From Aurantiochytrium sp. KH105 (taxonomy: Eukaryota > Sar > Bigyra > Thraustochytrida > Thraustochytriidae), in contig BGKB01000060.1 in NCBI GenBank assembly GCA_003116975.1, positions 157,208-221,207 on the forward strand: a stretch of DNA of 64,000 nt, written 5' to 3'. Positions 1,091-36,029 of this stretch are shown piece by piece (the stretch's first letter is position 1; each line of letters opens with the position of its first letter). Below the pieces are notes generated by a model that had not been told where the DNA came from, ran no database searches, and was given only the letters and a program-made list of their open reading frames with translations. The translations under genes were made by a program, and so were the position numbers.

Positions 1091-1428
1091 CGGCGTGGCG
1101 TGGCGCAGGAGGTGACCCGGGGCGCATCAGGCAGGCAGGGCCCACACTAATCTCACTAGGGGCTGACGGAGGAAGAAGGGCGGGGAAGAAAGGCGGGCTG
1201 AGAGCAGCCGCAGACCAAACCCCCAATCGGAACATCCGCTGCCACGGACGCACGCGGACTACGCAGGCAGCCAGGCAGGCAGGAAGGCAGGCAGGCCGAG
1301 CGAGCGAGCGAGCGAACCCCCAAGCGCAGCAAACCTGCAGCCGTCTCCGGCAGCAGCAGCACAGCAACAACAACAACAACAACAACAACAAGAGCGGCAG
1401 CACAAGCCTTGTGCACCGCGTACAGCAC

Positions 1429-1449
1429 AAGCAGCAGCAAGAGCAGCAG

Positions 1450-1485
<36 letters not shown>
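1429..1485. repeat. Interrupted CAG/CAA tract in the carboxylase leader
   Basis: CAG triplets interrupted by CAAGAG end about 15 bases before the start codon. They are most likely in the mRNA leader, where they would be an AG-rich unstructured stretch. They are out of the coding region because the carboxylase homology starts at the following ATG pair. Confidence 0.8.
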
Positions 1486-1499
1486 GAGCGGCAGGAACA

Positions 1500-15963: not shown

Positions 15964-18900
15964 TTACATTTGAACACTTGCGCGGACCAGAGCAAGATAT
16001 TCTCGGACGTCCTGAATCTGCTGCCTCAAGGACGCTTTGCATGCTTCCAATTCATCACGCTGGCGTAAAAGCTTGGCTCGCTTTGCAGCGCGCTTGTGCT
16101 CTTGAATAGCGTCTTCGGTGTCTTGCTGCCCAGCTTCCACAGCCGCCCTATCCACTCCCCGAAGGGGGGCGCTCACTTCTGTAGTCTCCGTGGTTGCTAC
16201 TGTTGAGAATGATCCACTTGATACTGGTTCGAGGTCGTATGCAAATCCGTCAAGCTCAGCGGTGTCCTCCGGCTCGATTCCAAGCTCGGGAATAGCCTCT
16301 CCGCGCAAAGGGTTTTGGAGCGCCAAGCAAATCAGACTGTCCACCACGAAGAGTCGCGTTGCTCCGATGGGGCTTGTCACAACGTATGGCTCGGGGTTTC
16401 CCAGGTGGCCGCGTCGGGTGTCCCTTTCCACCCCGCGATGGAGGTAAACGGGTAGAATCGCCCGCGAAGCAAGAATGCGAAAGACTTCCCCGTACGACAG
16501 ACGAGCCATTTCGGGGGTCACTCCAAGGTGATAAAACTGAGATGCGTGCGCTTCTGAGTTTGTCGCCTTTTGAACCCCATTGCGAGACCCCTTGAGCAGC
16601 GCCGAGAGTAGCTTGAGCAGATGTGGGTTGTAGTTTGTCTGCGCCATGATGGTGTCAAAGAGCTCATCGCAAAGCACCGTGCCAGATGCAATTGCAGACG
16701 AGAGCAACATTTCTTCGTCGTCATTGAGATTGGAAAGCACTTCGGTTGTTGAAAGCCTCCGCTGCATATATTGCACGTTGACGTTGTGCCGGAGCACGCA
16801 GCTCACGCGCACACGTCTATTCTCCTTCAGAACGAGATTGTACAGTAACAAGGTCTCCTCGTCCGCTCCGCGCATCGCTCGGGCGTCCGTGTTAGCCCGT
16901 CGTCGTGGGTCGCCCGGTGCGCAACTCGATGTCGAGGGGGCCGCAGCTAGTATGACGCGCGCAGCACGTCGAATTCCCGCTCGACGCCACGTCGATGTCA
17001 GTTCGGGCGGCCCACGAACCAGGTACACTTGACCAAATTGACTAATTCGGTTCCATGAGCGGTGGCCGATGGGGCCTCGACTGAGAATGATGATGGGCGC
17101 CGCCAATCCGGTCTTGCGTCCGCGAAGCTGAAGGACGAGCTCGCTGCAGTCTGCTCCGTCGCCATAGACAATTACATGTTTTCGCAGGCCAGGAATCTCA
17201 CTGAGTGCCGACTTATACACGAGGACATCCTCTTGGCAAAATTCCCGTGGAGCGAGATGGTATTCATTGGCCGGAAGACCCCCACGGTCGCCAAACAAAC
17301 ACGCTTGTGCTGGCGAGTGCTCACTCGCATCTGATGAGGACGAAGCCTCATACCTATCCTTGGAATCCTCTGTAGTATCCTCGGGTACCGCTTCGGCAGG
17401 GTTTTCAGCGTCTGCGTCACGATCGAGAGCGAGCCGAGGCTGGGTGTTTCGTCCTGCCTTGGGACTGCTCGGCAGAGTGTGGGATGCGCCGTATGCTTTT
17501 GGGGTTCCTACGTTTAGACCAGGAGACAGAATGCCCAAGCCCCCGTCGCTGGATCCGAGTTGTTGAGGGCGTGATGCCTCGATAGCTCGTTTCGCACGCA
17601 AGCGAATGCGAAGCGATATGACAGAAAAGTTCCCCGATTCGAACATGGCACTTTGGGCTCCATTTGCCGCAAGACTGTTCTTGGTGGCGTACTTTTGTCT
17701 GACCATGACTCGCGCCGTTCCAAACATACGCCTTGAAATTCTCGTACTAGTTGGTGCGGGAATCTTGCGCGTACTCAATGCTGAGGTGAAGCGAAGACCG
17801 GACGTCCGAGGCTCGGGTACGTTAGAACGTGCCAATAAGATTGTATGCGGCTTTTTCGAACTTCTGCCAAGGCCGAAGCGAAAGGACTTTGCGGTCGCAG
17901 ATGGCTTTGCTCCCGTCACTTTGCCGGGCTGAGCGTCAACATTTGCGAGACCTGCTTCAGTAAGGTCGGGCGCGATGACCAAGGACTGCAAGCGTATCTT
18001 GCTTGGATCGGTAGGGATGACAAAGTCACTCGGGTTAAGAAGAATACGCGCATCCAGATCGCTCGCCGACATCATGCTCAAGCCGAGCACCAGAATACCC
18101 GCCTCTTCAAACAAGATAATGGACATCTCTGCAAATGTGAGACCGCTGAAGGCACTGCCGGTGGGGACCTGGTAGATTTCGTTTGCGGCTCCATCGACAT
18201 ACTCTTGACACCAAGCAATGTCGCTTGGGTGCTCCTCGAAGACGTCGGGGTTCATGCCCAAGTCTTCGTCGCTTTCTCCACTATGTCGGGAGCGCGGACC
18301 TGCGTCGAGGAGTACGCGTGTCTTGTCAATCAGCTCTGAGCTCGTGGAACGACAGAGATTGCTGATAAAGGCCGAGAATCCTGGACACATGCAGGCTCTT
18401 GCGAGAATTTGCATCTTCATCTCCTCAACGCAAAGAATTTTCACTCGATCCCGAAGGGAAGCACGTTCGTCCCGGAGAATGAGCTCTTCCAGCATCCGCC
18501 TTGATCGCTGACGTAAAATTTTCACAAATAGCGTTGTCTGCAGACCAGAAGCCCGTGAGGATGCATCGCGCGAGAGCTTTCGTCTTGAAGGGAAACTTTG
18601 GTCGACCAGACGAAGCTGCGACTGCTGTGCACTTGTATCTTCATCTTCAAGCATCTCTACATTCCGTATATAAGCCTTGAGGGTGGCAAACGCTGTGCAT
18701 GTGATGAGAACGGTCTGTCGATCGTCGGCATCGGCCGCGCCGGTCTCACTATTGCCAAGTATATAAACTCTCCGAGCAGATGTCATGGATGCCCGATTGA
18801 GCACAGGGGTGCTGTATGCGGCCCCAGACATAAGTCGCAAAAAGTGCGCGCGCTCCAGAGAGGAAGACACCATCCGTAGAGCAAGTTTAGCTTGTAAGTC

Positions 18901-19926
18901 ATCCGAAATGAGCAAAACCTTTGGCTTCAACGAACCCCCATGATCGGGATGAAAGAATTCCTCAAAGAACTGAAAAAGTCCGTTCGTAATTGTGCCGCAA
19001 ATGATCACGTGGTTTGATTGCCGATTTCTGCTCGCCAAGGAGGAGGAAGGGCCCTGGTGAACGTCCGCCCCGTCTCCAGTTGCACTATTGTTGCCTCTTG
19101 CATTAAATTCGTTCTCCTGCAAGGGTGCTGTTTCCTCGTTCTGATTTTCCTCTTCCTCCTGCCGTTGTATCTGTTGCCTTGCTTGCGGATCTTTGTTTCC
19201 ACTGCGCTGATTATTGAAGAGCGAGTGCGACTGCATGGGAATCATTATCATCGTGGTCAGCACGAGACCTATGACAGTGAGGCGTGAGATCGTCCGCAAG
19301 ATACTCACGTCCCCGAAACCAACGGTTGTGATAGACACGACTGAGAAGTAAAGTCCTTCCGGAAACGAAATGTCCTCGAGCGAGGCGATCACGGCAGTGA
19401 ACACCATAACCAGAGACGATAGCTGAACACCGAAAGACATGACGTTGCGTGCACTTTCTCCGCTAATCATCGTACTCACACGCAAGAGCTTAAAGAGACG
19501 CAACACCACGAGGATATGGACAGCATGCATACGACGAGTTCCGCAGCATGCATCGCAGCTGTCGACGACCTCGTTTTTGGTAAGCAAGATTAAGAGTGAA
19601 ATCAACCCAACTGGCAACGAACATGCAAAATCACAGAGAGCGAGTGGGCTGAGCAGAAATGAGACCTGCCAGCCCTTTTTCGTAGCTACAGCAATGTAAT
19701 CTGCCGTTAGGATAACACCAGTTATACCAAAGAACACATAAGCTCCATAGGACCCATATTCTGGCTCGCATCCAGATTCATTGATCGCATACCTAGGCCG
19801 TAACGTCTCGAGCACGTACACAAGCATCGATAGGATTGCAATAACGGCATTGACGATCATGGAGCGCTGTTCTGCACCTGCACAAAACAGTCGAGCGAGC
19901 GATGCTATAGCATTGTTTTGCGACAT
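15964..19926 (-). CDS. Slo/BK-like potassium channel with two RCK domains
   Basis: This is a predicted tetrameric K+ channel gated by voltage and/or cytosolic ligand. The 1320-residue protein has six membrane segments within the first 240 residues: S1 about 21-44, S2 60-83, S3 86-115, S4 131-153 with the basic RLFKLLR stretch, S5 161-184 and S6 217-237. The pore carries the selectivity filter TTVGFGD at 200-206. An acidic, Gln-rich linker follows. The first RCK domain starts near 306 (HVIICGTITNG, the BK-type opening), and the second starts near 914 (KHVIVYGDGADCSE). A long Ser-rich insertion separates them. The C-terminus is a coiled coil. No obvious Asp-rich calcium bowl is seen. The gene converges on the preceding one with a 218-bp gap. 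The start is the first ATG; the frame is open upstream to a TTG. Confidence 0.9.
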   Translation of the reverse strand: MSQNNAIASLARLFCAGAEQRSMIVNAVIAILSMLVYVLETLRPRYAINESGCEPEYGSYGAYVFFGITGVILTADYIAVATKKGWQVSFLLSPLALCDFACSLPVGLISLLILLTKNEVVDSCDACCGTRRMHAVHILVVLRLFKLLRVSTMISGESARNVMSFGVQLSSLVMVFTAVIASLEDISFPEGLYFSVVSITTVGFGDVSILRTISRLTVIGLVLTTMIMIPMQSHSLFNNQRSGNKDPQARQQIQRQEEEENQNEETAPLQENEFNARGNNSATGDGADVHQGPSSSLASRNRQSNHVIICGTITNGLFQFFEEFFHPDHGGSLKPKVLLISDDLQAKLALRMVSSSLERAHFLRLMSGAAYSTPVLNRASMTSARRVYILGNSETGAADADDRQTVLITCTAFATLKAYIRNVEMLEDEDTSAQQSQLRLVDQSFPSRRKLSRDASSRASGLQTTLFVKILRQRSRRMLEELILRDERASLRDRVKILCVEEMKMQILARACMCPGFSAFISNLCRSTSSELIDKTRVLLDAGPRSRHSGESDEDLGMNPDVFEEHPSDIAWCQEYVDGAANEIYQVPTGSAFSGLTFAEMSIILFEEAGILVLGLSMMSASDLDARILLNPSDFVIPTDPSKIRLQSLVIAPDLTEAGLANVDAQPGKVTGAKPSATAKSFRFGLGRSSKKPHTILLARSNVPEPRTSGLRFTSALSTRKIPAPTSTRISRRMFGTARVMVRQKYATKNSLAANGAQSAMFESGNFSVISLRIRLRAKRAIEASRPQQLGSSDGGLGILSPGLNVGTPKAYGASHTLPSSPKAGRNTQPRLALDRDADAENPAEAVPEDTTEDSKDRYEASSSSDASEHSPAQACLFGDRGGLPANEYHLAPREFCQEDVLVYKSALSEIPGLRKHVIVYGDGADCSELVLQLRGRKTGLAAPIIILSRGPIGHRSWNRISQFGQVYLVRGPPELTSTWRRAGIRRAARVILAAAPSTSSCAPGDPRRRANTDARAMRGADEETLLLYNLVLKENRRVRVSCVLRHNVNVQYMQRRLSTTEVLSNLNDDEEMLLSSAIASGTVLCDELFDTIMAQTNYNPHLLKLLSALLKGSRNGVQKATNSEAHASQFYHLGVTPEMARLSYGEVFRILASRAILPVYLHRGVERDTRRGHLGNPEPYVVTSPIGATRLFVVDSLICLALQNPLRGEAIPELGIEPEDTAELDGFAYDLEPVSSGSFSTVATTETTEVSAPLRGVDRAAVEAGQQDTEDAIQEHKRAAKRAKLLRQRDELEACKASLRQQIQDVREYLALVRASVQM

Positions 19927-20647
19927 TTTCCGAGTACACGGAACAAACAGAGGCAAGGCAAGGTAGGGCAGTGCAGGGCAGGAAAGACTGCCCCGACGCT
20001 TTGTTTATCTGCTTGCCTGTCTGTAGGTCCGTCTGACTTTCTGTTTGGTGTTGACTGGTCAGCGTGTGCGTGCGGGGCGCGCGAGACCACGCACGCACCC
20101 ACGCACGCACCCTAGCACGACGCGCTTGTGCGCGTGATTCCTTTTTTATTGCTCTGCACGCCACTGCTTTGCGCGATCTAGATCTGCATCAAGTCTAGGC
20201 TGGTACCACGTCCTTCAACCATAAAAGAGTCTCAGGCTGCGTCTCCAATACTCGCTGTCCGCACACACCTAAAACCCGCCACTTCGATATGTATGTACAG
20301 ATAGAACAACCAACCCCTCAGGATCTGACGCCCTAGCTGGGGGCTGTTTCATCCTCCTGACCCAAGATGCAGCAGCTAGTTAGCTAGCTAGCGAGGCCAG
20401 ACCTTTCTTTGAACTTTTTCGGCTTACTGATAGTCAAAGTCTAGGGACCCCGGGCACACCAGTAGGCCGTCCAACGGCTACAACGGCTACTTCTGCGCAA
20501 CGCATAAAGTCCACGAGCGCTCTCAAACTTTTACTCTTTTATCTTTTGTTTTGTTCCAGGCTTAAAAGTCCTGAAGCGCGCGCACGCGCGCGCGCGAGCC
20601 TTGGGCAGGCAAACGTAGCGTGCGCGGTGGCCAGCGTGGCTGCGGCC
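19927..20647. promoter_or_regulatory. Divergent promoter between the channel and the EF-hand/LRR gene
   Basis: There is no gene in this gap. It contains GGCAA/GGGCA pentamers (about 19951-19982) and an ACGC tract (20088-20112). A pyrimidine-rich stretch ends in TTGTTCCAG (about 20551-20559) and resembles a 3' splice acceptor, so a leader intron is possible. A stretch of alternating GC lies just before the ATG at 20648. Confidence 0.45.
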
Positions 20648-23600
20648 ATGGCCGCGTCGGGCAAGAACCTGTTGCCGGCGGCGCTGACACCTAAGGAGAA
20701 GGAAAAGGTGTCGGGCCCGGGGGAGAGCCTTGCCTTGAAGAAAGGCAAATCAACACGAAGACACCTTGACCTCGAGGTTCCCGGCGCGGGCGAGGGAGAC
20801 GCGCAACCAACGAACAATACTTCAAGGTCCAATGGCTCCTCTGCCTTGGACAAGAAACTCAGCACGTTTGCGAATGCCCAGGGCAAGAGCATGTCCAAGC
20901 TGCGCGTTGGGGTTTCTGCGCGAGAGCTGCGACCGCTCGTGCGAAAGGGGGCGAAGCTGACTTTCACTACTGCCGGGAAAAAATCACGCATTCGGGGTGC
21001 TGCAAAGGACTCTGCAAAAACGGAAAAAACACCGAAATCGTCGAAAAATAAGGTCGAGGATGACGATGATAACTTTGCTCCTGCCGAGCAAATTCTCGAG
21101 ACGAAAACAATCCAGGACGCTGCTGCAGCAAAGGCGGCAAACGATGCAAAAGTCGCGGCCACGGTGCGAGAGCGAATGGAAAAAGGTAAATTCCACGTGC
21201 ATCTTATTCAGCTTGGCAGCTCGTACAGAATTGCCTTTTCGGAATCCCTTTTGAACCTCGTAAGTCAGTTTGACTTTGACGTGAACCTTTATGTCATGCG
21301 CAAGCGACCAGCAGCCCAAATGACAGGCATCGAAGAGGATGCAGAGTTTGGACGAATGAACAAGGCAGATGCCAAGGTAGTCTCGCTTGGCAAACTCCCA
21401 CCATGCACGTTCGACCCCAACAACGTAGAAGATGACGAAGCTTTCGATCATGAAGCCGTGGTGAGCCACGACTTTTTCTTTGGGGACACTTGCTTCGAAT
21501 TTGATTCAGATTTTCCGACAATGGTGAGCAGCCCGCTTGAATGGACAGGCGTGGCGCTGGTGAAATGCGCAGAAACCAAACCGGTAAGCTTGTATCCGGC
21601 CGTCCTCTTTTACGCCAAACTTGCAGTCATACATGAAAAGAAAAAAACTGCGAAAAAAAAGGCAGATGCCGTCAAAGAGGCAGAGAACATTCAGGAGAAA
21701 ATGCGATCCGCAACGACGTGGGAGCCTGGGCTTGGTCTACGTACGATCCGGCGCCTTCTTCGTTCCAAGCTACGATACTTTGATCGGAATGGTTCCAACA
21801 CGATTGACTTTGAAGAGTTCAAGGCCGCAATGGAAAATCTCGGCCTTTTCCTCACCGAGACAAGACTGCAGAAACTCTTTCAGGCTTGCGACCTCGACCG
21901 TAGTGGCACTGTAGAGCTCGATGAGTTGCCCCTGGCTCTTCACATCAATGATCAGTTGCGGGTACGAACGCGGATGACGCCGCGCGACGCTTTTGAGCTC
22001 TTTGACTACGACGGCTCCGGGTCCATCAATGAGCAGGAGTTCTTCGAGGTCGTTAATCTTCTGCCTGTGGCCTCAATGACACGCGAGCGCGCAGGCAAGG
22101 TGTTCGCTCGCCACGACACCGATAATTCTGGTGAGATTGAATACGATGAGTTTCGTGAAATCTGGCTTTCGTCGCTCTGTGACATTACCAGCGAGCTTAC
22201 CGTGCGAATTAAGGACGCTCAGCTCCTTGAAATCGAAAAGATGAGGGCTGGAATTGCTCCCGGTGGTTCTTCAAGCAGTAACATCGAGCAAGCCGAAGTG
22301 AGCGCCGCTGAAGCAGATGTCGATGCTGGTGCTACTGGTGCTGATCAAATTAGCGACGCTGCAAAAGCAAAGGCTGCGAAGGGCGCTGCCGGCGCTGCCG
22401 GCGCTGAAGAGAAAGATATACAGACAGGAGAGCCAAAGGTCGCTGCCGAAAAACCCTCTTGCGAAAAGGTTGCTCCTGAGATTGATGCGCAAAAGCTAGA
22501 AGCGAGAATTACGAAGTTGAAGGCCAAGCACGCACGCCAACTCCAGTGGGAACTGCGGAGGACCCGCAGAAAGAAAATTAAGCGACTTCGAGAGCTAGTC
22601 CTTGACGAAGAGCGCGCCGAAGCAGCTGAGTTTGAAGCTGCGCGTGAAAAGGCGTACAACGACGCGCATGCGTTGCGCATCGAAGTGGACACCAAAAAGA
22701 GGCAACAAAAATTGCAGCGACGACGTGAGGAGATTGCAGCAAAGGTAGCAGTATCAAAGGCCGAGCGCGAGCTTCGCCGACAGAAACAGCTCGAATTGAG
22801 CCAACGTCGACGCGCCGAGTCGCGCGAAAAAGCCCTGCGCGCCCAACTCAACAAGGAGATTCGATACAGAGAAGAGAAAGAGCGCGCAGATCGGCGGGCG
22901 GAGCGTGAGCTTCGCTTGCAACAAGAAAAAGAAGCTCGCGCGCGTCGCGGCGATGACCGACTCGATATGCCAAACCAGGGACTTCGAACCGTACCGCCGA
23001 CCTTGTACAAGGGCCACGAGGCACAAACACGTCTGGGTCATCTTGTAAGCATCGATCTCTCCCACAACAAACTGGAAAGTTTGCCAAAACAAGGTCTCTT
23101 TTTCTGGTGCGGGTATGTGCGCAAGCTTGATGTTTCCAACAACAGACTCACATCGCTTCCCGAAGAAGTCGAGGCGCTGGAAAGCATAGAGATCTTTACA
23201 GCGGTCCACAATCGTCTGCGAGCCTTGCCCCCGCAGCTCGGTGCTTTGCCAAAGCTCATCTCTCTCAATGTGGCCGAGAACGAAATTGAGGAGCTCTCGG
23301 ACAGCTTTTGTGTCTTGCCGTGTGTGCGCAATCTGCAACTTTATAAGAACGTCATCAAACGACTTCCGGCGGGGCTCGGCAACCTGCACACCCTCCGCAG
23401 GCTCGATGTCTCGCTGAATGCGCTTCGCGAGCTTCCCGATGAAATTTGTGAGCTTGAAAACTTGCAGTCACTCGATGTTTCGTGGAATCGTCTTCAGAAG
23501 CTACCGACAGCGATCGGGAAGCTTTCGAGTCTCGAGACGCTCATTCTCTCCGGCAATGAATTGCGGCGACTACCGGACTCATTGCAGACCCTGCACGCCT

Positions 23601-25090
23601 TGCAGGTGCTCCAGCTCGGCCGCAATGACCTTATTGAGGTCCCCGCAACCGTTGAAGGGCTTGTCTCGCTTCTACGACTTGATGTGTCCCGCAATCGCAT
23701 TGTCCGCATTCCCCGCGAACTCGGGAAAGTGCGCACGCTACAACACCTCGACATCTCAGGCAATCTAATTCGTTTGCTGCCTCCGGAGCTTGGTCGTCTC
23801 AGGGGTCTGGTCGTCTTTGAGGCATATTCCAACTTGATTGAGAGAATCCCCGAAGAACTCGCGGCACTTTCAAGTCTTGAGGAGCTAAATCTCTGTCATA
23901 ACAAGCTCGCCGGGCGTCTGCCCATGGCAGTCGGGGCGTTGCGACAACTTCGGATGCTCAATCTGGCAGAGAACGAGATTGAGATTTTGCCTTCTTCATT
24001 GGGAGCTCTTGTTAACCTCGAGGTATTCAATATGAACGGAAACAAGCTGACCGTCCTCCCGGCGACTGTGGCATGTTGGAATGTGAAGACCTTGCTGCTC
24101 TCACGAAATCGAGTCAAGAGCTTACCCGTCACCTTTGGCAATCTATGCGATTCGCTCGATCTCCTGGATCTTAGCAGCAATGCTTTGGAATTTGTCCCTG
24201 CCGAGCTCACATCTTTACGCACATTGCGTCATCTCGACTTGCATCACAATCGCCTGCGTGCCGTGCCGCCCCCGATTGCCAAGATTGTCCCACAATTAGA
24301 AACTTTTCGAGTCACGCATAATCCCTTGAGCGAGCTGCCTCCGAAATTTGCCAACGAGGTCGCCGCGGGCGGGCCGCGATCTGACCTAATATGGTCAGGC
24401 TATTCAGACGGACAAGTCGCCGAGTGGGCAATAGAAGTGCAGGACGTTTTGGACGTTTGTCGCGCCTGCATGGATTTGGATCGTGTTATGGCGCCCAACT
24501 CGGATCCCAATAGGCTTTCCTTTTGGGAATTTTCTTGCGCAGTCAAAGAACGTCTGCAAGAAGAGGACAAATGGCGTGAGCAGCTTATGCCTCACGTGAA
24601 TTCGTACTTTTTCCGAACAAAAGCTCTCGGAGAAGTCCCGCGACTGGATGCTATCGCAGTCACGGAAGTGACGTCGCGTGCAGATGCGATTGCAAAGCGG
24701 GAAACTGAACGAGAGCGCGTTGCCGCCGAGGCCAAAGAGCAGCACGAGGAGCGCGAGCTACGTCTGCGAGAAGTGTATTCGGTCTCGCGACCTGACTTTT
24801 TGCAAGCGGAAACAAAATTGAAGCGAAATGCAGCGCGGATACGGGACGAAAAGGAGGTGCTGCGGAAGAAAGAGATCGAGTCCACACGACCGATCCACGA
24901 GCGCCAGGAAAAGGTTTATATCGATACTAAGCGGCAGCGCGAAGCTGCGCGCAAAGCGCAGCTCGAAGAATGGCTTGGGCATTTTCGCGCGCAGCACGAA
25001 GACTTCATCCAGGAGCTCATTGCCTCTGAAGCGACGCGTGAGAGTCCAAGCAACAACAACAACAACAACAACAACAACCAAACAAGCTAG
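20648..25090 (+). CDS. EF-hand, coiled-coil and leucine-rich-repeat protein
   Basis: This 1480-residue intracellular protein looks like a calcium-responsive scaffold. After a basic N-terminus of unknown fold there are four EF-hands (about residues 369-508). Their loops are DRNGSNTIDFEE, DLDRSGTVELDE, DYDGSGSINEQE and DTDNSGEIEYDE, all with plausible calcium ligands. A Lys/Glu/Arg-rich coiled coil (about 610-770) follows, then some 17-18 leucine-rich repeats of about 23 residues (about 790-1228). These are of the plant/Ras-group type, LxxLPxxIGxLxxLxxLDVSxN. A second helical, charged region carries the C-terminus, which ends in nine or more asparagines coded by AAC repeats. The ATG at 20648 has a strong context (gcggccATGg); the open frame upstream starts only at a TTG. 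No kinase or GTPase domain is visible. Confidence 0.85.
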   Translation: MAASGKNLLPAALTPKEKEKVSGPGESLALKKGKSTRRHLDLEVPGAGEGDAQPTNNTSRSNGSSALDKKLSTFANAQGKSMSKLRVGVSARELRPLVRKGAKLTFTTAGKKSRIRGAAKDSAKTEKTPKSSKNKVEDDDDNFAPAEQILETKTIQDAAAAKAANDAKVAATVRERMEKGKFHVHLIQLGSSYRIAFSESLLNLVSQFDFDVNLYVMRKRPAAQMTGIEEDAEFGRMNKADAKVVSLGKLPPCTFDPNNVEDDEAFDHEAVVSHDFFFGDTCFEFDSDFPTMVSSPLEWTGVALVKCAETKPVSLYPAVLFYAKLAVIHEKKKTAKKKADAVKEAENIQEKMRSATTWEPGLGLRTIRRLLRSKLRYFDRNGSNTIDFEEFKAAMENLGLFLTETRLQKLFQACDLDRSGTVELDELPLALHINDQLRVRTRMTPRDAFELFDYDGSGSINEQEFFEVVNLLPVASMTRERAGKVFARHDTDNSGEIEYDEFREIWLSSLCDITSELTVRIKDAQLLEIEKMRAGIAPGGSSSSNIEQAEVSAAEADVDAGATGADQISDAAKAKAAKGAAGAAGAEEKDIQTGEPKVAAEKPSCEKVAPEIDAQKLEARITKLKAKHARQLQWELRRTRRKKIKRLRELVLDEERAEAAEFEAAREKAYNDAHALRIEVDTKKRQQKLQRRREEIAAKVAVSKAERELRRQKQLELSQRRRAESREKALRAQLNKEIRYREEKERADRRAERELRLQQEKEARARRGDDRLDMPNQGLRTVPPTLYKGHEAQTRLGHLVSIDLSHNKLESLPKQGLFFWCGYVRKLDVSNNRLTSLPEEVEALESIEIFTAVHNRLRALPPQLGALPKLISLNVAENEIEELSDSFCVLPCVRNLQLYKNVIKRLPAGLGNLHTLRRLDVSLNALRELPDEICELENLQSLDVSWNRLQKLPTAIGKLSSLETLILSGNELRRLPDSLQTLHALQVLQLGRNDLIEVPATVEGLVSLLRLDVSRNRIVRIPRELGKVRTLQHLDISGNLIRLLPPELGRLRGLVVFEAYSNLIERIPEELAALSSLEELNLCHNKLAGRLPMAVGALRQLRMLNLAENEIEILPSSLGALVNLEVFNMNGNKLTVLPATVACWNVKTLLLSRNRVKSLPVTFGNLCDSLDLLDLSSNALEFVPAELTSLRTLRHLDLHHNRLRAVPPPIAKIVPQLETFRVTHNPLSELPPKFANEVAAGGPRSDLIWSGYSDGQVAEWAIEVQDVLDVCRACMDLDRVMAPNSDPNRLSFWEFSCAVKERLQEEDKWREQLMPHVNSYFFRTKALGEVPRLDAIAVTEVTSRADAIAKRETERERVAAEAKEQHEERELRLREVYSVSRPDFLQAETKLKRNAARIRDEKEVLRKKEIESTRPIHERQEKVYIDTKRQREAARKAQLEEWLGHFRAQHEDFIQELIASEATRESPSNNNNNNNNNQTS

Positions 25091-25680: not shown

Positions 25681-27711
25681 ATGGACGAAAGCGAGGACGA
25701 GGGCGTGAACGAGACGTACGACAGCTCGGACCTGGACAATGGCGCAGCGGAAGGTCAAGAAACCGGGTTCGCGGACGACTCCTCGAATGAAGGAGACGCT
25801 CCAGGGTCTTCTGCGCAAGCACCAAAGTCGCAAGCGCAGGCGCAAGACGAGAACATGGATGTTGACGAGGGCGCCTCTGGCCCTGCCACGAGCGCAAGCG
25901 TGAACTCCGGAAAGGCGGAGACGAGCGCCAGCGTTGGCAATGGCAGCGGCAAAGGCAACGGCAGCACTGCAATGAATTCAGATAGCGCAAAAGAGGCCGC
26001 GCCGATCGAGACGAAAGTAAAGAACATTGAGTCTGCCGACGAGGTCAAGGATGAGGTGAAAACCGAGGGTACGGGCGACCATAGTGACACTGCTGTGGAA
26101 GAGGAGGACCTTGACGGCGAGGGCGAAGAGGATCCGGTAGAACACTCTTTTGACCTGTATCTAAGCCGTGAAATGGAAGAACAGCTTTACATGCTGCGAT
26201 ACCCGTTACGGTCCGTGACACGGGAACCTCCTCGTGTCTCGAGTGCTCGTTTCAAGCCGAGAAACCAAGTTTTGGAGACCACGGTTGATGTTTTGAATGC
26301 TTTCCATGGTGATGACCCGGACGGAAACCCATCATTTGAGCTGCCCCCGCATGTGGAGCACATGACCGATCACGAACAACGCGAATACATGGAGAAGGTG
26401 CGCAAGCAGAGCTTTCGCTCTGTGCGGCTTAATACGCACGAGCGCTGCTATGCGGCGGCCGTAGTAGACAAGGCGACAAATAGGGTCACGCTGGTACCTC
26501 TGCAAGGTATTTATGACATGATGCCCATCATACAGACTGGCTTTGAATCACAGGATGGACCGATCGACGACGAGGAGATTCCCGGGGTTGCGACGATGCG
26601 CTCTAGCAGCACAGCGGTGGCCATGGCCCAACCCGTCGGTCTTCAGCGCGAAGCAAATTATGACCCAAACCGACAACGCTTTGCCAAGGTGAAGCAGCAG
26701 CTCGACGAAGAGTCATGGGTGGATCTCGATGTACACGAACGTGATTCCGCTCAAGCCAGTGAAGCATTTGCAGAGCTCCGGTACAAGGCACCGCACGATG
26801 TTTCGTTGGAAGCCTGGGTTGATGAAATGTCCGACGCAGAACAGGCCAATGAGCAGACTGCGCAAAAAGGTGCAGGCCGTTCAAAGGGAGCTGTTGCTGC
26901 ACGCGAAGCGTTCAAGCTCAGCTCAGGGGACTACTTGGATGTGCTGGCGCCCAAGATTCGGCGTGATAGAGAAGGTATTCCTGATCCGGAAGCTATTCCG
27001 AGCGACAAGCCGCAGACCATTGAAGATCATTTGCGCGCGCAGCTTATTAAGCAGGGTGTGATGACGACGGAAATGATGGAGGGGTCCTTGACGCGTGCCT
27101 TTGGCAACCTTGAAACCAAGACGCTACGATCGCTGCCAGAAAAGCTGAGTGCCGTAGCTCACTTGGTTCACGGTGCGTGGTACCTGCGCAGCGACATTTA
27201 TAACGAGCATCGTTTCGGCATTTCACAGAGCGGCGATGATCTGGCAGACTACCAGCGCAACTGGACCCGCAACGTCATTTTGGCCATTTTTGCGGAGTAT
27301 CCAAAGGGCCAAGTCTCGCGCGCGGCCATCGCCAAGGAGGTCAAAGGTGTCGTGGCCTCGTCCATGCTCGAGTCTGTCGCCGTTTACAATGGAGAGAAGA
27401 GGCTATGGCAGCTCCTTCGAATTGACGAAAAATACCAAGGCCGAAATGCGGCCCTGGCTGCCAGACATCGCTCCGAGCTACGCGGCTTGCACTGCGACGC
27501 CTTGCAGCGTCTCTCGGGCTGGTCGCAGGAGCGAGCTTTCAAGGCCGCCTTTCCAGGTGAAAAGTTCACGCCCGGCGCAATCAAGGAAGAAGATCACCAA
27601 TACCACCACCAACAACAACAACACCAAGATGGAGAAGAGCCTATGCCCCCGCGCGCATCGTCATCTTCAGGCGCATCCAGCTCGAGGCCAAAGGTCAAGT
27701 TTGAGGATTAG
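25681..27711 (+). CDS. RNA polymerase III subunit RPC5 (POLR3E/Rpc37 family)
   Basis: RPC5 forms the Rpc37/Rpc53-type subcomplex of RNA polymerase III, which acts in initiation and termination at tRNA and 5S genes. The first 140 residues or so are an acidic disordered region. The RPC5 core then starts with the diagnostic EHSFDLYLSREMEEQLYMLRYPLR segment (about 156-180), a strand-rich dimerisation domain like that of human POLR3E. The conserved VTLVPLQGIYDMMP stretch follows near 270. A C-terminal winged-helix-like part (about 470-600) carries a VHGAWYLRSDIY motif. The tail is His/Gln- and Ser-rich. The length, 676, is close to human POLR3E (about 700). The start is the ATG in the context cgccATGg. 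The last codons overlap the end of the antisense neighbour by 17 bases. Confidence 0.85.
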   Translation: MDESEDEGVNETYDSSDLDNGAAEGQETGFADDSSNEGDAPGSSAQAPKSQAQAQDENMDVDEGASGPATSASVNSGKAETSASVGNGSGKGNGSTAMNSDSAKEAAPIETKVKNIESADEVKDEVKTEGTGDHSDTAVEEEDLDGEGEEDPVEHSFDLYLSREMEEQLYMLRYPLRSVTREPPRVSSARFKPRNQVLETTVDVLNAFHGDDPDGNPSFELPPHVEHMTDHEQREYMEKVRKQSFRSVRLNTHERCYAAAVVDKATNRVTLVPLQGIYDMMPIIQTGFESQDGPIDDEEIPGVATMRSSSTAVAMAQPVGLQREANYDPNRQRFAKVKQQLDEESWVDLDVHERDSAQASEAFAELRYKAPHDVSLEAWVDEMSDAEQANEQTAQKGAGRSKGAVAAREAFKLSSGDYLDVLAPKIRRDREGIPDPEAIPSDKPQTIEDHLRAQLIKQGVMTTEMMEGSLTRAFGNLETKTLRSLPEKLSAVAHLVHGAWYLRSDIYNEHRFGISQSGDDLADYQRNWTRNVILAIFAEYPKGQVSRAAIAKEVKGVVASSMLESVAVYNGEKRLWQLLRIDEKYQGRNAALAARHRSELRGLHCDALQRLSGWSQERAFKAAFPGEKFTPGAIKEEDHQYHHQQQQHQDGEEPMPPRASSSSGASSSRPKVKFED

Positions 27712-30358
27712 TCAGTCTAGGTGTCCGGACGTTGCGCTGCAGCGCCAGAGCGTACTGCATCGCCTCTGGTGAAGACCCTGCTGTTAGATTCATGAATAAG
27801 TCAGCCGCCTGGCCACCGATAATATGCTTGGCGGCCCAACGAAGGACGAGATAGAGACCAATCTCAGGCTTGGCGCTCCAGTCGACGAGCTGATCGACCC
27901 AATATCGCGCATTCGCGGCCTCATTCCAGATGACGCCGTCCTCCAGTATTCTCTTTTGAATGATGTTCCATGTATGGTCTGCCGACGCGCCGTCTTCAAG
28001 GTCCCCAGGGAGAGAGGCTCCGTGAGAGACGCGGAGGAGCTGTATGGGCGCCCCTGTGCCCATCGTCCACGGGGGCGAAAGATCAAACTTGCCAATATGT
28101 TCCTTGAAGGCGCGATAGGCGCGCAGAACCTCGCATTCGCGCGAAAACAAGAGTCGGTCGACAAGCGAGCTCTGCGATCCACGCAGCCGACGCGCCGCAG
28201 CAAAGGGCGAGAGAAGGCCCTGACGCAAGTGCGAAACGAGAACCTCTCCCAGTTGCACGCGTGAGAACTCGCCGCTCGCCCGTTCGAGAGCCAAAAGGTT
28301 CTCTTGGACAGCTTTCTCGCTCACTCGCGAGGCTTGATTCCCTTCGGGAATCCACTCTTCGAGCGCCCGCGGTTCCACGAGATCCCAGCGATCAAAGACG
28401 TGTTTGGGCACGAGAATGGCGCCGTCGCCTCGAACGAGGAACTCTTTGCAAAGGAGGTCCGAGACGGGCTGCAGGCATGGCACAAAATGAGCCCATTCGA
28501 GCTCATCGAGAGCACCACTCAGGGCTTGCGACAGACGTGCACGGTGCGCGTCGCCATGGTCTTCGTCTTCTGCACTCGTACGTACGTAACGTGGAGGTAG
28601 AAAGCAGTCACTATCGATGCTGAACAATGGACACGGTACGGCACGAGCTGCGTGTCGTAACAAGAGCATACTCGGCGGCGCGTATGACTCGGGCACAATC
28701 AGAATGTGAGCATTTACCCCGCGACTAAAGGAAGCGAGTGCAGAGGTCACCTCGTACGCGTCGCAATAAATGCCAATCAAAGGAATGTTCCAGTCCTTTA
28801 GGTGTTTGCGCATAAGGAGAAAGGTTGCCGCGCGGTCACGATGCAAACGCGTCCGTTGACTCGTGTCGTTATGCGCGCATGATGCGTGCATGTCAGATGG
28901 CAGCATTGCAATAGCAACGACGGGCATTGAAAGTTCAATGTGCATCCAGAGCGCCAGGCCAAGGGCCCAATTATCTTCTAAGCGAGCGCACGAGGCTGCT
29001 TCCCCAGGCACTCCGCCCAGCTGAAGCCAAAGAACAATGACTTGCCCTCGGGATTGTTTCTGAGGTGCAGGCATTTTGTACGCAAAGCTTCGACGCTTCA
29101 GCATGGCAGGCCAACGGGCGAGAGCGAAGAGATGATCGCTCCCTTGGCTTTTGTCGGTAATCTCGCCTTTGGGCAATTCCTCGAGCCGAGCATACGTCGG
29201 AGCGCCCAAGTCTACGTCCGTTGGTTCGCATTTTCCACCCTGTAGCCATCGACTAATTTGCTTTTCGTCCCCGTTGCTGTCGATTGCTGCAAATCGGGCC
29301 CGCTTTGCTGCAACGGTTGCTGTAGATGAACACCCCGAGCTAGTGCTCGAGCGCGCGTCGTCGTCCACCTCGTCTTGCTCTCCTCGTCTCTTTCTCTTTT
29401 GGACCGGATCTGTCAGTAAGACCTCTCTCGCCTGTACAGAGTCTGTTTCCGAGGGACTTTTCTTTTGCGCAGACATGGGAGAGGCGGCCAAAGGAGTGAA
29501 TGCTTCGTGCGCCTTCGCGATTGCAGACGCTTGCTGCTCGTCTGAGTGGTGCTCGACGTTAGACCCATCTACTGACTCTGGAGTTCTTGGAACGTTCTCT
29601 GCGGTCTCTTGCGAACGTTCGCAAGGTGGTATTGGTGACCGGCATGTCATCGCTTTGTGCTTGTCAGTGTTGTCTGATTGATTGCAAGACGCCTCTACTG
29701 CCATAGGCGTCGATCGCGAGTCACCCGGTGGTACTGAAGGAGTCTTGTGGAGTTTTGGGGACACAGCTTTGACTTCAGACTGCAGCGCAGAGCCTGTGTC
29801 TATTTCGATCTTGTCGAAAGACGCGTTTTGCGTTTTTGCAGTTGTACGACCACCTTTAGACTCCATGTGCATGGTCATTTCTCGAGAGTTTGCAACGGTA
29901 TCTCTAGACTCTTCTGAGCCTTGAGAGTTTGAGCGCGCTGAAGATGTGGATTCTTGCAATTTCTTTGCAAGATTTTTTGCTTCGCACTCCACTGTTGATT
30001 TCAAGGACTCTTTACTGGAGACACGAGTTTCGTCTTCATCGGACGCCACCTTTGTGTTTGAAGATTGTGTCTTTGCGACAAGAGTGCTATCATCGTCGGG
30101 CTCCGACATTATATTTGAAGACTGTTTGTTTGCGACAAGAATGCCATCATCGTCCAGCTCTGCCTTTCGAATCGAAGGATCTTTGTTTGCGACGAGAGTG
30201 CCATCTTCGTTGAGCTCTGCCTTTCGGATAAGAGGCTGTTTGTTTGCGACGAGAGTGCCATCTTCGTGAGACACCATTACTGTATTTGAAGACCTTTCTC
30301 GAGGGTTCTTTACAATGACAGCATAATCATCTTCAGAGTCTCTTTTTGCAATTGACAT
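27695..30358 (-). CDS. Divergent class II photolyase-like protein with a disordered repeat-bearing N-terminus
   Basis: The C-terminal 450 or so residues (about 438-885) follow the order of class II CPD photolyases. An N-terminal Rossmann-like part contains DNWALGLALW. An antenna-domain end reads FSIDSDCFLPPRYV. The helical FAD domain contains the SSLVDRLLFSRE helix and an HTWNIIQ...ARYWVDQLVDW segment. Tryptophans at 797, 820 and 827 line up with the class II electron-transfer triad. The usual DGRDPNGYVG motif is replaced by GGQAADLFMN, so catalytic activity is doubtful. The N-terminal 430 residues are Ser/Asp/Glu-rich and contain five 19-residue tandem repeats. The start is uncertain: 30358 is the first in-frame ATG (887 residues), but the frame stays open to a GTG at 30673 and an upstream exon is possible. 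Its stop codon lies inside the RPC5 coding region. Confidence 0.7.
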   Translation of the reverse strand: MSIAKRDSEDDYAVIVKNPRERSSNTVMVSHEDGTLVANKQPLIRKAELNEDGTLVANKDPSIRKAELDDDGILVANKQSSNIMSEPDDDSTLVAKTQSSNTKVASDEDETRVSSKESLKSTVECEAKNLAKKLQESTSSARSNSQGSEESRDTVANSREMTMHMESKGGRTTAKTQNASFDKIEIDTGSALQSEVKAVSPKLHKTPSVPPGDSRSTPMAVEASCNQSDNTDKHKAMTCRSPIPPCERSQETAENVPRTPESVDGSNVEHHSDEQQASAIAKAHEAFTPLAASPMSAQKKSPSETDSVQAREVLLTDPVQKRKRRGEQDEVDDDARSSTSSGCSSTATVAAKRARFAAIDSNGDEKQISRWLQGGKCEPTDVDLGAPTYARLEELPKGEITDKSQGSDHLFALARWPAMLKRRSFAYKMPAPQKQSRGQVIVLWLQLGGVPGEAASCARLEDNWALGLALWMHIELSMPVVAIAMLPSDMHASCAHNDTSQRTRLHRDRAATFLLMRKHLKDWNIPLIGIYCDAYEVTSALASFSRGVNAHILIVPESYAPPSMLLLRHAARAVPCPLFSIDSDCFLPPRYVRTSAEDEDHGDAHRARLSQALSGALDELEWAHFVPCLQPVSDLLCKEFLVRGDGAILVPKHVFDRWDLVEPRALEEWIPEGNQASRVSEKAVQENLLALERASGEFSRVQLGEVLVSHLRQGLLSPFAAARRLRGSQSSLVDRLLFSRECEVLRAYRAFKEHIGKFDLSPPWTMGTGAPIQLLRVSHGASLPGDLEDGASADHTWNIIQKRILEDGVIWNEAANARYWVDQLVDWSAKPEIGLYLVLRWAAKHIIGGQAADLFMNLTAGSSPEAMQYALALQRNVRTPRLTNPQT
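29984..30268 (-). repeat. Five 57-bp coding tandem repeats (19 residues each)
   Basis: On the minus strand the unit encodes a pattern of the type D-E/D-D-G-T-L-V-A-N-K-x-x-x-I-R-K-A-E-L. It is present five times and degenerates toward the C-terminal copies. The period of 57 bases is visible in the recurring GCGACGAGAGTGCCATC-like segments. Confidence 0.85.
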
Positions 30359-30615
30359 CGTGGAATGCGCCCCGACAACCTCAATGTCCGAAGCATCATC
30401 GTCAGCATCGTCAAGGCTAACGAGGTCGACATCACGATTCGGTGTGGATGGAGTAGGCAATTGTTGAGTCTGACTTTGGGCGTGCGTCTGACTTGAATGG
30501 CTAACTGGTTGTTTCCCGTCAAGCACCTGCGTCAAAGAGTCCCAAAAGTCGTCTGGCAACGGTTCTGCATGGTCGTCTCTGGGGTTATTGTTATGTGTCG
30601 TGGGCACGCTGATGG

Positions 30616-30942
30616 TTAGTTCGTTGCTGCGCCCTTGAAGTCTGAAGCGACTTCGCCTACGATGTACTTGCACGTATCCGGCCGGTCTTTCTCAAGCACG
30701 TACAGTATCCTTACGCAGCGCGTGAGGTTTGGATTGGCCTGAACCCGAAGCGCGTAGTCGGTGCATGGCGGCGACGGCCCTCGGGTTTGGGCCTCGGTCT
30801 CGATCTCGAGAGATGCTGGGCCACGCGACCGACGAGACTGCGGACGAGGTCTGCGACGGGGCCAGAAGGCGGGCGGCGCTTCGGCAGACGCACTCGCGAA
30901 GGACCGCGCCGCCAAGTCGAGCAAGCGCCTCTCGGCGCTCAT
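30616..30942 (-). CDS. Small 108-residue reading frame, or first exon of the photolyase-like gene
   Basis: An ATG at 30942 opens 108 codons in a different frame from the downstream photolyase-like frame. The product starts MSAERRLLDLAARS, has an Arg/Pro-rich middle, and ends with a hydrophilic, non-repetitive segment that reads like true coding sequence (NLTRCVRILYVLEK...). I do not recognise a family. On the minus strand a CTAAC branch-like motif and a CCCCAG acceptor follow near 30610-30570. A GTACAT donor near 30668 would join this frame, in phase, to the photolyase-like frame. It could therefore be a separate small gene or exon 1. I see no way to decide from DNA alone. Confidence 0.4.
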   Translation of the reverse strand: MSAERRLLDLAARSFASASAEAPPAFWPRRRPRPQSRRSRGPASLEIETEAQTRGPSPPCTDYALRVQANPNLTRCVRILYVLEKDRPDTCKYIVGEVASDFKGAATN

Positions 30943-32811: not shown

Positions 32812-33281
32812 CGCAGCGCATAGTGGCATCGCGACGGGACGCGACGCGACACGAAACGTCGCGACGCAACGCGCCCCGGCAAACCGCGCCCCGAGAGCAG
32901 CGGGCGAAGACCGAAGGAACTCGAAGTGCGGGCAACAGACCTCGTGGGAAAGGGCACGGACTCCGCTGCTGGTCTCAGACGAAAGTCTCGCGTACGCGCA
33001 CGATAACTTGGAGCTTAACGGCGGCGCCAGAAATCTTTGCAAGAGAACGACAGATTGAAGGGAACGGCGCGCAAGTGCTGGCCATGGAACTTTTGTCTGC
33101 ACTGAAAGTAGACGTACAGCGAGGTCCGGGTTCCTCGAGAGTGACCCCGCGCACTGTTTGTTCAACTTCAGTGGCTTGTCAGAAATAAAGGCATCCTCCA
33201 TCGCCTGCTCGTGAAGCTTGGTAGCTCTTTTTGCAGACTTTATTCTGCGGAACCGAAACTTCTCGTCGTGAACTTGTAGGA

Positions 33282-36029
33282 ATGACGCAAGTTAAGGGAT
33301 GGGCTGAAGCGGTGGAAAGAATATGCTCGCAGAAAGATAACTCGCTCGCAGAGACGCAGGCAACGCTTGCGGAGTTCGGGCGCGAAGGACCCGTTCCGCT
33401 TTTTGGACTCCGAAGACTGCTCAGTGCGTTGGGACTTCATCTCTTTTCCTCAGCTGTCGCAGAAGGCCTCGCCCGCGCACTATGCGTGAGCATACCAAGT
33501 GAGAAGCCCTTTGACGACCTAGAAATGGAGGATTGGCTCTTGTGGCGGGAGGATCTCGTTCAGACTGCTCGTCAGAGCCCTCAAGAGGTGATTAAGCCTC
33601 TTGTCTTGGCTCTTTGTCACGCGCCGCAATGGTTTTGGACGCGAGCGCATCTTGCAAATGTTTTGGCACCTCACTGGCCGGCATGGCATCTTGACAACAA
33701 CGCGGTTCATGTCGCTGTGGAGGCTTTGCGACTCGACAAGGGCCATGCTGACGCTGCCGACAAGGTCTTTCTCGCCCTTTTATCCACGACTGCAAAGGAC
33801 GACCCGGCAGTGCTTGCAGAGTCGCTATGGCCCGAAACTCTGGATCTTCTTGTCCACACCAGTGTTACCTTATTGCCAGCGCCTTTATGCGCGCTTGTTG
33901 ATCTCCTTGCGTGCCGGTCACCGCAAGCCAACTCAACAGTGCAGGAGGTTCTCTCTCCCATGCGACCTGCCGTGTATTCGTCCGCGCTCGTGCGCGTGAC
34001 AATTGATAACTATGCCTCAGCGTGTCTCGCGGTGCCGGGAACAGGCCCAAACCTTTGGGCTGCAATATTTTGTGAACATGGTCACGCACAGCGATCGCGC
34101 ATCCTCGACTGCGCACTGCGCGCCTTCGCAAACACACCACAGACCGGGTCCGCGCTATTGGCTGGTCTGAGCCTCGTTGTAGGGACTGAACGAGGCATTC
34201 TTGTCGAGCACTTTGAAGAAATCTGCTCATTTTGGGACTGGGCATCGAGTTTGCCTCCAGATGTCAAAACATGGTGCGCATGGGGCGAACTTCTCGCTGC
34301 TACTTGCGAGGCCAAGACGATCGCCGCAACTGATGCCCGCATGCAAAGTCCCCTTCGAGCAGACACAACGCTGGATGTAGGCCGTGCTGTGTTGGCAAGT
34401 GGCGCTGCGCGATGTAAAGCATCGCCTTCCCGTGCAGCGGAGTGGGTGCGCGTGTGGAGCACACAGGTGATGCAGCGACCAACGCTCGCTTCCGTGCACA
34501 CCATGAATGCACTCGCGGAAATGCTCAATGCAGAAGAAAATATCCGTCTTCATACGCGAGTCATCCTGCCTATGGCGCGCGAGACTGAGCTTGTTGAATC
34601 GCGCGAGCACGGAGCTCTTCACGTGACATTGCACGGGACTAAACCTCAACGTCGCGCCGTGTGGCTGCTCTTTGTAGCCTCAGCGCGACGCACCAATTTG
34701 GCCCCTTCAGCGTACCCAATCAAGTTCCCATACGCGCCATCTCTGGAGAAAAGCTTCGTTCGCACAATTCTTGCCGAACAGAAAGAAATGCTTCTCGACG
34801 CAAGTGAGCTTCATCCCGCTGACGCATTCAAAATGGAGCCGTCTCGATCTTCTGGTCTTTCGTGGATCTCCGCCTTGACGGCGGGGGCCACGGAAGGTAT
34901 GCCACAAGCCACAGAAAATGATGCAGCATGTGAAGATCGCATCGAGCAGAGAGTGGACGTCGAAGTCCTTGCACGGGCGTGGCTGGCGCTCTCCAAAAGC
35001 GCCGAGCATGGATCTCGCGCCCAAGAACGTCTTGCGAAGGTGCTCTGCAACGTTTTATGGAAGTTGTGGCACGCGCAGCAAGACGATCTCAAGTCGCTGG
35101 AGCGAATTCCCCTTGACGCAATCCTAGTGCAGCTCGCCTTCGCCAAAGCTCTGCAATGTGATTGCAAGCCATGTGCCCGAGCGTCTCGTGAAGAGGTCCG
35201 AATTTTAGCGGTGGCGTGCGCGCTTGCAGGGCTCGACCGCCTCGAAGATGCCGTTGGGGCTGGGGTGGACACAAGCACACTGAGCATTCCGAACGTTTTT
35301 GGTCTCTTTTTCGCGCGCACAGAGACAGTCTTTCGCCGCGACCGGGGCTTCGAAACGTGGGTGTTCTTGTCGATCTTGACGCAGCTTGTGAGCTGCGATG
35401 CCGAGCTGCAGGCTGTGACAAAGGTAGCCTGCGCGTGTTTTCAAAAGACGCCTATCATGGGTGTGCTCGAGCGCGACATGGCAGTGGAAGCGTGTCTCCT
35501 GGACCTCGCTGGAGACCTCGACGCGCCACAGCGACGCCTTTGGTCTGTAGCTCTTCGTGTAGGTGGTGAGAGCGCAGAGCCGTCGCTCCAGCCACTTGCG
35601 CGCATTGGCTGCATGCTGGTGTCTGCCCCATATCTGCAGTGTTCTTTGCCTCCCGAGATTGATTGCTCGTCATCGATGGTCTTTGCGAGAATGTGCGCCG
35701 TCACTCGGGGTTTGCGTAAAGCATTTTCGGCACAACTCACTTCAGGCCGCGTAAAAGAGGAAACTTTCGCGCTGGGTGATCTTGCATGCGTAATTGCAAT
35801 CGACACTTTGCGCAGTGCCCAGGTCCAAACCTCTCCGATGCTCGAGGAAATCGTCTCAGAAGTGCTTGAGACCTTTCGTGCTGTTGCTGCGGTCTTGGAT
35901 GGAACACGCACTTTGCTGGCGCTGGCGGCTGAGATCGGAGCTGATGTTCTACGCGGTGCGAGTATCGAGCAGCGTTCAAGTCTTTCGGCGTTGCAGGAAT
36001 CTGGTCTCTTGGTCAAGCTTTCATCGTGA
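33282..36029 (+). CDS. Large alpha-helical protein of unknown function
   Basis: I do not recognise this 915-residue product. It is rich in Ala, Leu, Trp and Cys, with no membrane segment, signal peptide or low-complexity region. Its alternating hydrophobic helices recall HEAT/ARM-type solenoids. No catalytic motif (Walker, methyltransferase SAM loop, kinase) is evident. Codon use is less extreme than in the carboxylase, as in most genes of this window. The ATG at 33282 is the first in frame; the frame extends upstream only to a TTG. It is divergent from DRG2 and convergent with the PP4 gene. Confidence 0.75.
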   Translation: MTQVKGWAEAVERICSQKDNSLAETQATLAEFGREGPVPLFGLRRLLSALGLHLFSSAVAEGLARALCVSIPSEKPFDDLEMEDWLLWREDLVQTARQSPQEVIKPLVLALCHAPQWFWTRAHLANVLAPHWPAWHLDNNAVHVAVEALRLDKGHADAADKVFLALLSTTAKDDPAVLAESLWPETLDLLVHTSVTLLPAPLCALVDLLACRSPQANSTVQEVLSPMRPAVYSSALVRVTIDNYASACLAVPGTGPNLWAAIFCEHGHAQRSRILDCALRAFANTPQTGSALLAGLSLVVGTERGILVEHFEEICSFWDWASSLPPDVKTWCAWGELLAATCEAKTIAATDARMQSPLRADTTLDVGRAVLASGAARCKASPSRAAEWVRVWSTQVMQRPTLASVHTMNALAEMLNAEENIRLHTRVILPMARETELVESREHGALHVTLHGTKPQRRAVWLLFVASARRTNLAPSAYPIKFPYAPSLEKSFVRTILAEQKEMLLDASELHPADAFKMEPSRSSGLSWISALTAGATEGMPQATENDAACEDRIEQRVDVEVLARAWLALSKSAEHGSRAQERLAKVLCNVLWKLWHAQQDDLKSLERIPLDAILVQLAFAKALQCDCKPCARASREEVRILAVACALAGLDRLEDAVGAGVDTSTLSIPNVFGLFFARTETVFRRDRGFETWVFLSILTQLVSCDAELQAVTKVACACFQKTPIMGVLERDMAVEACLLDLAGDLDAPQRRLWSVALRVGGESAEPSLQPLARIGCMLVSAPYLQCSLPPEIDCSSSMVFARMCAVTRGLRKAFSAQLTSGRVKEETFALGDLACVIAIDTLRSAQVQTSPMLEEIVSEVLETFRAVAAVLDGTRTLLALAAEIGADVLRGASIEQRSSLSALQESGLLVKLSS

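Follow-up and report, generated by a model that had tools for sequence, protein, structure and literature searches.

Locus organization and gene model

The window, a 64,000-nucleotide stretch of contig C60 from an assembly of 76 Mb in 367 contigs, holds on its minus strand an open frame encoding a photolyase-like domain at the C terminus of a long protein (Table 1). The neighbouring genes encode the RNA polymerase III subunit RPC5, a DRG-type GTPase and an LRR/EF-hand protein, and give no functional hint; an ORF of 1514 aa at 20546-25090 (plus strand) combines EF-hands with an extended array of leucine-rich repeats. The photolyase-family and PUFA-synthase genes examined are all paired, with each copy on a different contig (PfaD-type PUFA-synthase gives four full-length matches of 711, 711, 682 and 682 bits), and the assembly therefore seems to hold two haplotypes. 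The counterpart of the frame on contig C1 is open over 991 codons and shows 96% DNA identity over the 2701 bases compared, and the 9.5-kb stretch around the frame is likewise 96% identical throughout between C60 and C1.

The GTG at 30673 is the mechanical start of the open frame and is not claimed as the real one. An earlier note on this DNA had placed the gene at 27695..30358; its end holds, but its start falls on the internal Met106 (30358), which is Thr in the second haplotype. This replacement, together with the near invariance of residues 23-102, in which only two haplotype differences are found (D41E and V57A), places the start of the gene further upstream. Our guess at the actual structure, drawn from the sequence, is a spliced model with an ATG at 30766 and an intron at 30714-30634, which is open in the window and would encode 996 aa.

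Table 1. Sequence features of the photolyase-like gene and of its convergent neighbour (window positions; residue numbers of the 992-aa frame)
Feature	Position	Strand	Basis or remark
RPC5 (RNA polymerase III subunit), convergent neighbour	25681..27711	plus	PF04801, E 5.6e-36
Photolyase-like ORF, 992 aa	27695..30673	minus	Open frame from GTG; also open on contig C1 (991 aa)
Possible first exon, ATG at 30766	30715..30766	minus	ATG and donor conserved in second haplotype
Possible 81-nt intron GTAAGG...TTCAAG	30634-30714	minus	Donor and acceptor conserved in second haplotype
Acidic block, aa 81-100, with two SUMO-interaction-like motifs (VDLV, IEVV)	30374..30433	minus	Motif scan
Imperfect 57-nt tandem repeat, 3.7 copies	30057..30267	minus	Codes for a ~19-aa acidic repeat (..DGTLVANKQ..)
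NLS-like KRKRR, aa 426-430	29384..29398	minus	Motif match alone
Second NLS-like motif KRAR, aa 457-460		minus	Motif match; Pro replaces A459 in the second haplotype
Photolyase alpha/beta (antenna-type) domain, aa ~546-720	28514..29038	minus	PF00875 at aa 564-702
Class II EDNWAL motif	28961-28978	minus	Within the alpha/beta domain
Photolyase helical (FAD-type) domain, aa ~721-992	27698..28513	minus	
Glu301 to Arg840 and 305 position to Ser844 (aa 840-844)	28142..28156	minus	4 of 4 MAFFT modes
W902, equivalent of M. mazei W360 (middle Trp)	27968..27970	minus	4 of 4 MAFFT modes
W925, equivalent of M. mazei W381 (flavin-proximal Trp)	27899..27901	minus	4 of 4 MAFFT modes
W932, equivalent of M. mazei W388 (distal Trp)	27878..27880	minus	4 of 4 MAFFT modes
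Equivalent of NDRYELDGRDPNGY, reading AAKHIIGGQAADLF, aa 947-960	27794..27835	minus	Asn403 to Ala, Asp409 to Gly

At its coding end, RPC5 shares 17 bp with the photolyase-like frame, so that a missing 3′ exon bearing the FAD motif would have little space. Such a lost exon is rejected in view of this overlap and of the tail of the protein (residues 941-992), which shows no replacement between haplotypes. A possible in-frame mini-intron near 27814, seen by eye, was also considered, and its excision would not restore the FAD motif.

Remote homology to class II photolyases

The genome encodes a canonical class II photolyase, C26 (L007:1471-3051), which scores 512 bits to the class II family TIGR00591, slightly under the 550-bit cut-off, and a divergent class II paralog of 578 aa, C23 (L009:1366-3102; its haplotype partner C175 is at L010), which scores 209 bits. 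C26 reads DGGDPNS where DGRDPNG is expected, and its second copy (C227:47570-49052) was matched in two frames. Two further pairs, C19/C3 and C21/C68, carry PF00875 and PF03441 domains and are called CRY-type here, a working label resting on these Pfam domains. Given these other class II and photolyase-family genes, photorepair is probably covered without the gene in the window.

A Pfam scan of the frame (E up to 10) reports one family, DNA_photolyase (PF00875, E 2.9e-4, aa 564-702), in a match below the curated cut-off, and an NCBIfam scan likewise reports one, TIGR00591 phr2 of class II (E 1.6e-4, aa 890-956), scoring 21 bits where the cut-off is 550. A PDB sequence search (E up to 1) yields six matches, five of them to M. 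mazei class II enzymes (E 0.009-0.22) and the sixth to a ribosomal protein aligned in the N-terminal part. Pairwise BLASTP gives E values of 0.006 with C26 and 0.015 with C23. A profile of 34 bacterial and archaeal class II proteins and C26 (34 of 38 loci were used, the partial matches L062, L071, L072 and L073 being left out) finds residues 563-945 with an E value of 3.7e-5 and 25 bits; with C23 added, the E value is 7.8e-10, and none of 20 shuffled window domains was reported by that profile at E up to 100. Aligned with hhalign, the two haplotypes match the 36-row class II alignment at 98% over 365 columns (E 2.4e-13), and show no match to a two-row alignment of the CRY-type proteins of this genome. 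The class II profile without C23 ranks the CRY-type proteins C19 (36 bits) and C21 (55 bits) above the window protein, and a single-protein search of the genome with the window domain returns itself and its haplotype copy and nothing else. No match to the protein was found in PHROGs (E up to 10), nor to its patterns in the viral contigs; class II patterns matched seven viral stretches, none of which was confirmed.

At the level of sequence comparison, these results confirm that the domain is homologous to class II photolyases over both of its parts, beyond chance, the similarity being remote. The earlier note's view that the C-terminal half follows class II CPD photolyases is thus borne out by the TIGR00591, profile and hhalign matches, and no unrelated family gave a better match in the searches made. 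Class II is preferred over other photolyase classes because of TIGR00591, the PDB ranking, hhalign and the triad pattern described below; it is the best supported, if not certain, assignment of a protein that is far from every class. In a tree of 23 rows, including 17 of the 34 bacterial and archaeal ones, the branches of the window protein (7.9 changes per column) and C23 (5.7) are saturated, so that the tree does not settle their kinship.

Like the M. mazei enzyme MmCPDII (PDB 2xry/5zcw) and a plant enzyme (3umv), the window protein has colinear alpha/beta and helical domains, and it shares with class II CPD photolyases the EDNWAL motif, R164, E307 and the triad W360/W381/W388. Unlike them, it has about 545 residues preceding the domain. 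The predicted structure of the domain (pLDDT 67, pTM 0.67) has the photolyase fold and not an unrelated one, in a model built with 34 class II rows, an input favouring that fold. The alpha/beta domain is predicted best (10-residue mean pLDDT of 76-93 over model residues 31-160), and the C terminus lies partly under pLDDT 50.

Loss of cofactor, lesion and bubble residues

Residue equivalences were tabulated at 32 positions from four MAFFT modes, with the M. mazei enzyme as reference. The window protein agrees with M. mazei at nine positions in all four modes (R164, L267, L271, E307, W360, Y380, W381, W388 and G410), at R441 in three and at N257 in one, and C23 at 21 (letters from one mode). Lost in the window protein are E301, the residue at 305, D310, N311, Y345, R378, M379, N403, D404, D409, N414 and W421, and also, with alignment-dependent letters, Y252, R256, D428, R429 and W431; the four modes disagree on its letters at 252, 256, 257, 428, 429, 431 and 441. 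Position 305 is Trp in M. mazei and C23, and Arg in C26 and in all 34 bacterial and archaeal rows, which shows that it is not family-defining. In contrast to the window protein, C23 keeps N403, D404, D409, E301, W305, R256, W421 and D428, as well as R441, and it ends in a PIP-box-like QARIESFF; by these features C23 resembles a functional photolyase that is perhaps linked to PCNA.

Among the residues that we take to have roles in the FAD pocket (S268, N311, R378, N403, D404 and D409), S268, N311, R378, N403 and D409 are replaced by V, A, A, A and G in all four modes, so that this set of class II pocket residues is not preserved here. The conserved DGRDPNGYVG segment is indeed absent, as noticed at the outset, the equivalent of DGRDPNGY reading GGQAADLF. 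Local alignments end close to this point (aa 944-945 with our profile, 945 with hhalign, 947 with PDB sequences and 956 with TIGR00591), that is near N403; equivalences at the C terminus thus rest on the global alignment and are the least sure. Of the CPD contacts named in PMC6126647 (W421, W305, M379, N257, E301, R164 and R256), R164 alone is kept in all four modes and N257 in one, so that the contact set as a whole is not preserved. The paper also assigns R429, W431, R441 and D428 to the bubble-plugging region, which is not preserved either: D428 and W431 are lost, and R441 is found in three of the four modes.

The loss is unevenly distributed. Of the 69 columns invariant in the family (36 rows, 95% or more), 24 are kept by the window protein (26 in one of three modes) and 46 by C23. 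Region by region, the numbers for the window protein and C23 are 10 and 13 of 19 in the alpha/beta domain, 5-6 and 13 of 18 in the first helical part, 7 and 9 of 12 in the triad region, and 2-3 and 11 of 20 in the C-terminal FAD and bubble region, which indicates that loss is concentrated at the flavin- and DNA-binding parts. Compared with a class II enzyme, FAD-pocket, CPD-contact and bubble residues are mostly gone, and a two-residue insertion is found in the triad loop. The counts of basic (KR) and acidic (DE) residues are 44/52 in the window domain, 71/71 in that of C26 and 58/50 in that of C23; the counts for the window domain argue against a DNA-binding groove.

Retention of the tryptophan triad

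The three tryptophans numbered 797, 820 and 827 in the earlier gene model are W902, W925 and W932 of the full frame, and their reported spacing of 23 and 7 is verified. Their M. mazei equivalents are spaced by 21 and 7, the window protein carrying an insertion of two residues between the first and second Trp; W381 is presented as the first and W388 as the last of the triad in PMC5885780. The protein keeps five of the seven family-invariant tryptophans (24, 328, 360, 381 and 388), two of which lie outside the triad, and has lost 421 and 431, which are DNA-side lesion and bubble contacts. Since tryptophans are kept outside the triad as well, packing is a likelier reason for their retention than electron transfer, though it does not explain the distal W388 well.

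Selection between haplotypes

The window domain has a dN/dS of 0.148 (Nei-Gojobori; 13 replacement and 27 silent differences), a value that, coming from one haplotype pair, measures short-term constraint only. Within the frame, dN/dS is 0.183 for the alpha/beta domain, 0.127 for the helical domain, 0.55 for residues 19-470 and 0.095 for residues 471-545, and residues 860-992, which hold the triad, show no replacement at all. Values for other genes of the genome are 0.144 for the C23 domain, 0.066 and 0.090 for the CRY-type C19 and C21, 0.035 for the DRG-type GTPase and 0.119 for part of RPC5; the C26/C227 pair was set aside, its value of 0.475 mixing misaligned codons owing to the two-frame match of C227. 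The window domain is constrained about as strongly as the C23 paralog, in which the active-site residues are retained, and less than the CRY-type genes. An unannotated neighbour (33231-36029, plus strand) has a dN/dS of 0.452, and strong constraint is thus not general to all ORFs here.

The N-terminal arm

The earlier description of a disordered N terminus of 430 residues is right as to a long part preceding the domain, but this part measures about 545 residues and is not uniformly unconstrained; residues 23-102 are conserved. The acidic block with VDLV and IEVV lies inside this conserved segment, and both may act as SUMO-interaction motifs. The 57-nt repeat is held in a fast-evolving spacer. 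Motifs of the NLS and SIM kinds are short and common by chance.

A putative flavin-free scaffold and alternative explanations

The C-terminal ~450 residues, open in two haplotypes, are homologous to class II photolyases, with recognisable alpha/beta and triad-helix parts. They lack most FAD, CPD-lesion and bubble residues, and purifying selection acts on them much as it does on a paralog that seems complete. The reading that we favour, with a probability of about 0.62, is that a class II CPD photolyase has given rise here to a pseudoenzyme, flavin-free, devoid of photorepair and acting as a light-independent scaffold. It would fold as a photolyase without bound flavin, leaving photorepair to the canonical class II enzyme of the genome, and would serve light-independent protein interactions, probably in the nucleus as its KRKRR and KRAR motifs suggest. 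Within the long, acidic N-terminal arm, which bears the NLS-like motifs, the conserved block with its two SIM-like motifs and the repeat-bearing, fast-evolving tether would bring in partners, among them possibly chromatin or repair proteins modified by SUMO, and the photolyase fold would provide a second binding surface. The triad tryptophans would be kept for helix packing rather than as an electron wire. Among the roles proposed at first sight, a photolyase turned structural or scaffolding protein remains the best reading, as the predicted fold and purifying selection are kept and cofactor and substrate residues are mostly gone. The idea of a strongly diverged repair enzyme is disfavoured by changes at all of Glu301, Arg256, Met379, Trp421, Asn403 and Asp409 (Arg164 is kept), and the same kind of losses speaks against a sensory role as flavin photoreceptor.

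It is unlikely, if conceivable, that the protein is a lesion- or DNA-binding accessory factor that performs no repair but still attaches to branched or UV-damaged DNA, passing it to other repair proteins. Photolyase ancestry, the nuclear-type motifs and the kept R164 (all four alignments) and R441 (three of four), which are DNA or CPD contacts in PMC6126647, are consistent with such a factor; however, E301, M379, the side contact at 305, W421, W431 and D428 are lost, and the domain is more acidic than basic. A diverged flavoprotein that still works as a photoreceptor or an enzyme, with FAD held by replaced residues and a live triad, is improbable. Its case is made by the three triad tryptophans, by the kept Tyr380 and by the absence of haplotype replacements in the triad-holding segment, but all six FAD-pocket residues are replaced, two of the five invariant tryptophans kept are outside the triad, and the C terminus falls short by about a dozen residues (60 lie beyond the final triad Trp, compared with 73 in the M. 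mazei row used) and is in part predicted with low confidence. Little credence can be given to an RNP-assembly factor, in which the fold would be a building block of a large RNA-protein complex by analogy with the photolyase-like protein in the mitoribosomal small-subunit assembly intermediate of Trypanosoma brucei. A flavin-free light or redox sensor, in which FAD has been swapped for another cofactor or an antenna-type chromophore sits alone in the better-kept alpha/beta domain and the triad still moves electrons, is most improbable. A pseudogene or an assembly or gene-model artefact, as the lost family-defining motif and the sub-threshold PF00875 match might suggest, is highly unlikely in view of two open haplotype copies of 96% DNA identity, the single 992-codon frame, the dN/dS of the domain, which contradicts it, and the little space that convergent RPC5 leaves for a lost exon.

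Relation to known systems

Photolyases and cryptochromes are described as flavoproteins, and loss of enzyme function among photolyase relatives is well known from cryptochromes. Vertebrate-type cryptochromes are light-independent binding proteins built on a photolyase core; they belong to a branch of the superfamily different from class II, and the CRY-type profile of this genome does not match the window protein. What is unusual here is a class II descendant without the flavin pocket in which selection holds both fold and triad. Among the literature matches listed, no such flavin-pocket-less class II protein is described; orthologues may exist, annotated elsewhere.

Two precedents bear on the scaffold reading. 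The T. brucei mitoribosome assembly protein 7pua chain Ff is a long component of an assembly complex and contains a photolyase fold, and is thus a precedent for this fold in such a setting; photolyase is not named in the literature on this protein among the matches listed. The CPD photolyase of Potorous binds CLOCK and restores the liver oscillator in cryptochrome-deficient mice, according to PMC3156801, which provides a precedent for a class II photolyase as a binding protein. Plant PHR2 is recorded as a separate, plant-specific subfamily of the superfamily in PMC4564169. If the scaffold reading is true, the protein would separate the architecture of the photolyase fold from its photochemistry, and nature would have provided in it a way to tell whether the triad tryptophans are kept as electron carriers or as packing residues. 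Class II would then join the photolyase folds reused without photochemistry, beside a canonical class II gene in the same genome.

Further observations in the window

Between 30700 and 31000 on the minus strand, an ATG near 30942 opens a stretch reading MSAERRLLDLAARSFASASAEAPPAFWPRRR.., in which the first haplotype differences look silent; a Pfam scan of both strands of this region (E up to 1) gave no match, and the stretch may be a small gene or a 5′ exon. A 2352-aa ORF at 1500-8558 (plus strand) encodes a multidomain acetyl-CoA carboxylase, opposite which a frame of 2514 aa is open at 1029-8573 (minus strand). A BK/slowpoke-like calcium-activated potassium channel is encoded at 15964-19956 (minus strand), and one ORF at 49314-51167 (minus strand) combines thioredoxin, ubiquitin-like and PUB domains.
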